Part shown: positions 1,727-2,561 of the stretch, piece by piece | Layout of the letters: the number at the start of each line of letters is the position of its first letter | Numbering within the stretch: the first letter of the stretch is position 1 | NCBI RefSeq assembly: GCF_000023865.1 | Contig: NC_013159.1 | Span: forward strand, 310,001 to 374,000 | Length of the DNA: 64,000 bases | Direction: 5' to 3' | Source: Saccharomonospora viridis DSM 43017 | Lineage (GTDB): Bacteria; Actinomycetota; Actinomycetes; Mycobacteriales; Pseudonocardiaceae | Notes under the pieces: model-generated | Database searches by the model: none | Told to the model about the DNA's origin: nothing | Seen by the model: the letters and a program-made list of their open reading frames with translations, nothing else | Made by a program: the position numbers and the translations under genes

Positions 1727-1915
1727 CTCCCGGCCCCCAGTGGGCAACATCACAGTACGGGCGTACTTCTAATGTGGTCGGTCTGATAGATCGACTTTAT
1801 GCAGGTCTCACAGGGTGCGCCTCGGCGCGTGAAGTAGCGCTTCCGGCACCGCTCGTCGCGACTCGCATGGGGGGCTAGCGACAAGGTGTGAGTTGCGTCT
1901 TACACTGACCATGCT

Positions 1916-1933
1916 TTGTGAATGGCTTCACAA
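1916..1933. promoter_or_regulatory. Rex operator 1 (ROP site)
   Basis: The sequence TTGTGAA-TGGC-TTCACAA is a perfect 7+4+7 inverted repeat and matches the operator consensus of the NADH/NAD+-sensing repressor Rex (TTGTGAA-N4-TTCACAA). Rex is known to target respiratory genes, including nuo, in streptomycetes. It also fits the CRP half-site pattern TGTGA-N6-TCACA, so a cAMP receptor protein is an alternative reader. It lies about 210 bases upstream of nuoA. Confidence 0.75.
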
Positions 1934-1946
1934 CCCCTCGGGGTGC

Positions 1947-1964
1947 TTGTGAAGGTATTCACAT
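1947..1964. promoter_or_regulatory. Rex operator 2 (ROP site)
   Basis: The sequence TTGTGAA-GGTA-TTCACAT matches 13 of the 14 half-site bases of the Rex consensus and retains a perfect 6+4+6 core. It starts 31 bases after operator 1, about three helical turns, so the two sites would lie on the same face of the DNA and could bind two Rex dimers cooperatively. Confidence 0.7.
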
Positions 1965-2141: not shown

Positions 2142-2561
2142 GTGAACTCCTCGGTGTCCGCGGTAGAGGTTCTGGCGCAGGAGAGCGCGGATTCCGGCCT
2201 CGGCGTTTTCCTGCCGCTCGTGTTGCTGTTCGGGCTCGCGGTCGCGTTCGCGCTCTTTTCGGTCCTCCTCGGGCCGCTGTTCGGACCCAGCCGCTACAAC
2301 AAGGCCAAGGTCTCCGCCTACGAGTGCGGAATCGAGCCGTCACCGCAGCCCCTGACAGGCGGCGGTCGTATGCCCATCGCCTATTACGTCACGGCGATGC
2401 TGTTCATCCTTTTCGACATCGAGATGGTGTTCCTCTTCCCCTACGCCGTGTCGGCGGATCTGCTGGGGCTGTGGGGCGTCGCAGCCGTCTCGGTGTTCAT
2501 CGCGACGTTCTTCATCGCCGACATCTACGTGTGGCGGCGCGGCGGGCTGGATTGGAACTGA
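2142..2561 (+). CDS. nuoA: NADH-quinone oxidoreductase subunit A
   Basis: A 139-residue membrane subunit of respiratory complex I and the first gene of the operon. Three hydrophobic segments are visible, around residues 22-45, 82-105 and 108-130. The conserved loop YECGIEPSP and the acidic motif ILFDIEMVFLFP match NuoA/ND3, whose loop sits at the quinone and proton-coupling junction. The GTG start is preceded by GAAAGG at 11 bases spacing. It ends 6 bases before nuoB. Length agrees with actinobacterial NuoA. Confidence 0.95.
   Translation: MNSSVSAVEVLAQESADSGLGVFLPLVLLFGLAVAFALFSVLLGPLFGPSRYNKAKVSAYECGIEPSPQPLTGGGRMPIAYYVTAMLFILFDIEMVFLFPYAVSADLLGLWGVAAVSVFIATFFIADIYVWRRGGLDWN

Follow-up and report, generated by a model that had tools for sequence, protein, structure and literature searches.

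Paired Rex operators and an IdeR-type half-site suggest a two-promoter control region for the complex I operon of Saccharomonospora viridis

Introduction

How is the complex I (nuo) operon of Saccharomonospora viridis controlled, and does a single regulator reach all of it? A preliminary description of this DNA had placed two Rex-type operators upstream of nuoA and proposed redox control of the whole nuo operon. Here we analysed a window of 64,000 nucleotides (bases 310,001–374,000 of the genome, which is a single contig of 4,308,349 bp), the rest of the genome, and nuoA upstream regions from inside and outside the Pseudonocardiaceae. Judged from these comparisons, Rex control of nuo through the operator pair appears well supported. 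The best explanation of the region as a whole is probably a Rex-blocked promoter, P1, together with an IdeR-activated promoter, P2.

Results

Rex operators and the rex gene

Reading frames resembling nuoA to nuoE follow one another in order from position 2142 of the window. The gene upstream of nuoA belongs to the geranylgeranyl-reductase family and ends at 1726, and the 415 bp between the two contain both Rex operators, an IdeR-type half-site, and both promoter-like boxes. A scan of the nuo control region with the sigma-70 consensus returned no promoter or terminator. The transcription starts given below are predicted from −10-like hexamers, the first base of a −10 hexamer being −12. The features of the region are as follows.

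1878–1883, plus strand: candidate −35 hexamer of P1, GCGACA, separated by 17 bp from the −10 hexamer; a putative element recognised by eye, and only in the nearer genera
1901–1906, plus strand: −10 hexamer of P1, TACACT, with a start predicted near 1913
1916–1933, no strand: Rex operator 1 (ROP1), TTGTGAATGGCTTCACAA, 0 mismatches to TTGTGAA-N4-TTCACAA, predicted to cover +4 to +21 of P1
1947–1964, no strand: Rex operator 2 (ROP2), TTGTGAAGGTATTCACAT, 1 mismatch, predicted to cover +35 to +52 of P1
2012–2027, no strand: IdeR/DtxR-type half-site, GTAAGG-N4-CCTTAC, predicted centre at −44.5 of P2
2052–2057, plus strand: −10 hexamer of P2, TAAGGT, 24 nt past the half-site, with a start predicted near 2064
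2142–2561, plus strand: nuoA (NADH-quinone oxidoreductase subunit A), first gene of the nuo operon

ROP1 and ROP2 meet the 18-bp consensus with zero and one mismatch, respectively, and start 31 bp apart; the positions and mismatch counts in the preliminary description were exact. Both precede an established Rex target and are conserved in relatives. They are the only two places in the window within three mismatches of the 18-mer, a count that is weak by itself because 12 of 100 shuffles reach two or more sites at that threshold. Across the genome, the same threshold returns 32 places versus 18 for a reversed control pattern, so loose matches are mostly noise. The perfect 16-bp core TGTGAA-N4-TTCACA, however, occurs twice in the whole genome, both times upstream of nuoA, against approximately 0.033 copies expected from base composition. 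A chance origin of the pair was rejected on this comparison. Five places in the genome carry zero to two mismatches: the two at nuoA, one each at a whiB gene and at rex, and one at C1:1805167.

The Rex DNA-binding family has one match in the genome, 29 kb upstream, which supplies the rex gene that the preliminary description had proposed to look for. Its product scores 378 bits on NCBIfam NF003992 (cut-off 226), contains two Rex domains, and can be aligned along about 200 residues with Rex-type proteins of solved structure, of which eight sequences match. A two-mismatch Rex-type operator lies 103–120 bp ahead of the rex reading frame, suggesting autoregulation. A one-mismatch operator lies 69 bp ahead of the WhiB-family gene, and the frame beyond that gene resembles a histidine kinase by eye. 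A further near-perfect site, TGTGAAATGCTTCACG, is found about 200 bp from a galT gene and may be of the CRP type rather than a Rex site.

The accessible parts of a study on Streptomyces avermitilis report nuoA1, wblE, and rex as direct Rex targets, with gel shifts and chromatin precipitation for the three promoters and footprints that include those of rex and nuoA1 (PMC5355995). These three targets (nuoA1, the whiB-type gene, and rex) recur among the best sites in the S. viridis genome.

Conservation of the operator pair

Within a sample of 200 Pseudonocardiaceae genomes, 199 have a NuoA match and 198 a Rex match. We collected nuoA upstream regions from 86 of the 200 (the 30 best NuoA matches, 40 hand-picked for genera, and 16 added later to the set), which span all 46 genera, with near relatives over-represented (11 are from the window's own genus). 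A pair of Rex sites is present at nuoA in 56 of these genomes, a single site in seven, and none in 23; by genus, the corresponding numbers are 27, 6, and 13. The 23 genomes thus have no Rex site at nuoA although 198 of the 200 sampled carry Rex.

With one genome taken per genus (n = 27), the operators of a pair start 32 bp apart in 19 genera and 33 bp apart in five, with spacings of 31, 34, and 20 bp seen once each. Further spacings are 35 bp, in a relative within the window's genus, and 24 bp. The 14-nt linkers between ROP1 and ROP2 in the 19 genera average only 44% identity, so the spacing appears to be kept while the linker sequence drifts. Together with the presence of the pair in 56 of 86 genomes and 27 of 46 genera, this supports selection for a spaced pair. 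Judged against its relatives, the window's pair looks like a slightly worn copy, with a spacing of 31 bp and a mismatch in ROP2. The helical phase of the common spacings suggests cooperativity between ROP1 and ROP2, although it would not be absolute since the spacings of 24, 34, and 35 bp fall off the helical register. The accessible part of a paper on Bacillus subtilis contains nothing on Rex cooperativity (PMC5189952).

The P1 box accompanies the operators. A TA...T hexamer begins 14–20 nt ahead of the first operator in all 63 operator-bearing genomes, at 17 nt in 40 of them, and reads TACACT in 51 and TAGACT in 10. The TAnACT box is missing from all 23 family upstreams without Rex sites, which must therefore use another promoter. 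From this distribution, P1 and the Rex operators appear to come and go together, while P2 mostly stays.

Outside the family the arrangement is scarce. Two perfect cores 3–23 nt apart were found in two of 296 genomes of the class, both of them Pseudonocardiaceae, and in none of the 294 class genomes outside the family. A search of approximately 85,000 species genomes for pairs of 17-bp operator stretches gave at least 120 perfect-pair stretches. Among the 120 matches listed, 69 adjoin nuoA, with a spacing of 32 bp in 61, 33 bp in two, 31 bp in two, and 20, 24, 30, and 34 bp in one each. The P1 box is present in 68 of these 69, at 17 nt in 54. The other 51 listed stretches were not assigned to nuoA. 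Four of them have less than 250 bp to the end of the stretch, three labelled as Pseudonocardiaceae genera or Saccharomonospora and one as Acidimicrobiales. For the remaining 47, tblastn placed no NuoA beside the pair; nearly all are labelled Bacillota or Verrucomicrobiota, and 40 of the 47 have operators spaced 21–25 bp apart. Among the matches listed, at least 11 stretches labelled Verrucomicrobiota carry tandem perfect Rex-type operators spaced 25 bp.

Four of the 69 nuoA-linked stretches are assigned to taxa that lie outside the family or rank above it (Rhodococcus rhodnii, Nocardia sp. NRRL S-836, an Actinomycetes bin, and a Melainabacteria bin). These labels likely reflect mislabelled, or possibly contaminated, records, since the Rhodococcus rhodnii stretch is the same as that of Kibdelosporangium in spacing, distance, and half-site.

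We further compared 63 nuoA upstreams from outside the family, comprising 24 rex-bearing genomes, one with a doubtful Rex match, and 38 rex-lacking genomes. One family of 18 genomes was counted as rex-lacking on the basis that no Rex was found among the matches listed. A site with at most two mismatches is present at nuoA in eight of the 24 rex-bearing genomes, in neither the doubtful genome nor any of the 38 rex-lacking ones, a comparison confounded by descent because the 38 come from four families. The eight include all five genomes of one family, and in three of those five the site is the one footprinted in S. avermitilis. The other 16 rex-bearing genomes have no site with two or fewer mismatches at nuoA. 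The earlier assignment of Rex as the binder gains from this absence in rex-lacking genomes, and from the presence of a rex gene and of sites before rex and whiB.

The IdeR-type half-site and a putative second promoter

Downstream of both Rex operators is a third palindrome, at 2012–2027, that the preliminary description did not include. Its sequence, TAAGGCGGTCCTTA, differs by one change per arm from the 14-bp form TTAGG-N4-CCTAA, its arms being TAAGG and CCTTA; the commonest form in relatives is GTTAGG-N4-CCTAAC or close to it. Of the 86 family upstreams, 68 contain the relaxed 14-bp form and 20 the strict TTAGG-N4-CCTAA, while shuffled controls of the relaxed form gave a mean of 0.1 and a maximum of 2 per 86 over 40 rounds. 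The relaxed form is present in 42 of the 56 genomes with a Rex pair (14 are without it), in all seven with a single operator, and in 19 of the 23 with none. Outside the family, 2 of 63 nuoA upstreams have it. A full 19-bp IdeR box at nuoA was also considered and rejected, the best matches having at least four mismatches in all 86 family upstreams. In four of the seven single-operator genomes, an IdeR half-site occupies the place of ROP2, 29–30 bp past the start of ROP1.

The genome encodes an IdeR/DtxR-type protein (NF053665, 328 bits, cut-off 290) and a second DtxR-family protein for which the best NCBIfam match is an MntR model, below cut-off. In eight hand-chosen genomes, GTWAGG-N4-CCTWAC occurs at 23 places, of which 16 were fetched, six at nuo and 10 elsewhere. 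The palindromes elsewhere precede genes for a haem oxygenase, a siderophore-interacting protein, two DUF2470 proteins, and a pyridine-nucleotide-disulphide oxidoreductase, among others. The one in the window's genome precedes a gene for a periplasmic binding protein, which among NCBIfam models matches an iron-enterobactin one best, though below cut-off. Other neighbours (DoxX, MerR, acetyltransferase, and methionine-synthase-like genes) have no clear iron link. In Saccharopolyspora erythraea, metal-dependent binding of one IdeR dimer to the nuo half-site has been shown in vitro, with an apparent KD of 102 nM, according to the accessible parts of the 2021 IdeR paper (PMC8464063). On the strength of that paper and of the gene neighbours elsewhere, we took the palindrome at 2012–2027 as a DNA site, and its alternative as a hairpin was dropped.

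The half-site keeps a fixed distance to a −10-like box. A TA...T hexamer (TANNNT) follows it in 65 of 68 genomes, 24 nt away in 16 and 25 nt away in 49; any other gap from 5 to 49 nt is found in at most two genomes. The spacers average 32% identity at 24 nt (11 genera) and 41% at 25 nt (25 genera). In the three exceptions, the half-site lies ahead of P1, 36–37 nt from the P1 −10 hexamer, or about one helical turn further. Among the 16 fetched palindromes, the box at 24–25 nt is present at all six nuo sites versus none of the 10 others. The same holds in the wider scan, where the half-site is present in 48 of the 69 listed nuo-linked stretches, each time with the box 24 or 25 nt away. This would centre the half-site at −44.5 to −45.5 relative to the predicted P2 start, beside the −35 region. 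Such a position is a frequent place for activators. A DtxR-family precedent for activation is MntR of B. subtilis, for which several dimers are needed according to the accessible part of a preprint (PMC11275975).

Alternative explanations

The Rex part of this picture could be right alone, with tandem operators that repress nuo, a downstream half-site that represses or is idle, and no P2. The evidence for Rex would be the same. IdeR is known chiefly as a repressor, and several of the half-sites away from nuo have a repressor-like position, 15–66 bp from the earliest candidate start codon of genes for iron, haem, or redox functions. We nevertheless consider this reading unlikely, given the fixed step of 24–25 nt to TANNNT in 65 of 68 genomes across spacers that are only 32–41% identical, and the lack of the box at 10 of 10 half-sites away from nuo. 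The 23 upstreams from which both the Rex sites and TAnACT are missing would also need a promoter other than P1.

An MntR-like paralogue or another regulator might bind the palindrome at 2012–2027 instead of IdeR. The second DtxR-family protein of the genome is a candidate, and the window's arms are TAAGG/CCTTA rather than TTAGG/CCTAA. This appears improbable in view of the in vitro binding of the nuo half-site by S. erythraea IdeR (PMC8464063, in its accessible parts), and of the haem oxygenase, siderophore-interacting, and iron-siderophore-type binding-protein genes that the palindrome precedes elsewhere.

The same question arises at the Rex sites. Both contain TGTGA-N6-TCACA, and this core cannot separate CRP from Rex. 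Mycobacterium smegmatis Crp uses it at two sites at cydA, as described in the accessible part of one report (PMC7739888). In a Mycobacterium-like family, 12 of 18 genomes that lack rex, and five of six with Rex or a doubtful match, have TGTG-N7-TCACA near nuoA. A CRP-family protein on ROP1 and ROP2 is nonetheless highly improbable. The inner positions A7 and T12, which a CRP site leaves free, are fixed in both operators in every one of the 27 genera, and 22–27 of 27 keep positions 1, 2, 17, and 18. The same motif also stands ahead of rex, and sites past the predicted start would probably not suit a CRP activator. The CRP-like sites of the Mycobacterium-like family, e.g., GTGTGGGTAAGCTCACAT, lie within 220 bp of nuoA. 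A takeover of nuoA by CRP from Rex in rex-lacking relatives was considered and rejected, since rex-bearing members carry the same CRP-like sites.

That the palindromes act as hairpins in the leader RNA rather than as DNA operators is scarcely credible. In its favour, pairing between ROP1 and ROP2 is possible in the transcript, and the 229-nt leader folds better than shuffles (z of −2.39). The N4 centres also pair slightly more often than in shuffles, at 105 of 224 positions versus a mean of 90, a count equalled by 6 of 1000 shuffles with relatedness ignored. Against it, the operator arms hardly vary and do not covary, only three of 56 pairs have fully complementary N4 centres, and there is no Rfam match in 1700–2300. 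An upstream reading frame in the nuo leader was dropped after inspection by eye.

Discussion

We propose that the region upstream of nuoA works as a switch with two sensors and two promoters. At P1, the two Rex operators would lie in the first 52 transcribed bases, separated by about three turns of the helix. At low NADH, both operators would be occupied by Rex dimers that block opening of the promoter or escape from it, and as NADH rises, Rex would be released and complex I, a consumer of NADH, would be produced. P2 would lie downstream of both operators. Its most likely mode of control is activation by one Fe2+-loaded IdeR dimer at about −45, so that the iron-sulphur-rich complex I would be made through P2 when iron is sufficient. 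Rex should not stop transcription from P2 because approximately 100 bp separate the end of ROP2 from the predicted P2 start.

For the preliminary description, this means that the proposal of Rex control at nuo stands, whereas its extension to the whole operon is probably too broad. Rex would govern P1 rather than the entire operon because a conserved promoter-like element and the half-site lie downstream of the operators. We give slightly less than an even chance to the more tentative proposal that this is a general rule for complex I in the Pseudonocardiaceae, with NADH relieving the Rex block at P1 and one Fe2+-IdeR dimer at about −45 activating P2.

If the model is true, complex I responds independently to an excess of NADH and to sufficient iron. 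Production of respiration's largest iron-sulphur enzyme would thereby be coupled to NADH level and iron supply in an antibiotic-producing family of actinomycetes. It would also give a function to the IdeR half-site that its discoverers left open, with IdeR as an activator beside the −35 region. The fixed distance from half-site to box makes this function directly testable, and the natural spacing series of the Rex pair (20, 24, and 30–35 bp) provides material for tests of cooperativity.

The closest known system for the Rex part is nuoA1–N1 of S. avermitilis, which is alike in motif, operon, and regulator family and for which binding, a footprint, and derepression in a rex mutant have been shown, as described in the accessible parts of that study (PMC5355995). 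There, nuoA1 is derepressed without rex, and its time course under oxygen limitation is alike with and without rex (PMC5355995), which tempers an argument from oxygen. The S. avermitilis promoter has one operator, TTGTGACCTGCTTCACAT, protected from −42 to −16, whereas S. viridis has two that are predicted to lie past the start. In position, the S. viridis pair more resembles S. avermitilis cydA1, which is protected from −3 to +25, at and past the start (PMC5355995). However, cydA1 has one full operator and a half-site rather than two full operators. The tandem Rex-type operators in stretches labelled, nearly all, Bacillota or Verrucomicrobiota are likewise two near-perfect sites placed close together, but 40 of the 47 listed are spaced 21–25 bp and tblastn found no nuoA beside them.

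In the accessible parts of the open-licence literature on Rex, IdeR, and nuo, we found no description of paired Rex operators together with an IdeR half-site. For the IdeR part, the known counterpart is the nuo site of S. erythraea, which is alike in operon and in its single-dimer TTAGG-N4-CCTAA form. In the accessible parts of the work on that site, binding is shown, function is left open, and Rex is unmentioned (PMC8464063, PMC10317159). The 2021 IdeR paper leaves the function of the half-site for future work and describes nuo of Mycobacterium tuberculosis as iron-induced (PMC8464063), and a 2023 review lists half-sites in other species as an open question (PMC10317159), both as far as their accessible parts go. 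For the Pseudonocardiaceae, the conserved half-site answers that question. To the S. erythraea system, the analysis of S. viridis and its family adds the conservation of the half-site, its fixed place before a −10-like box, and the company of the Rex operators.
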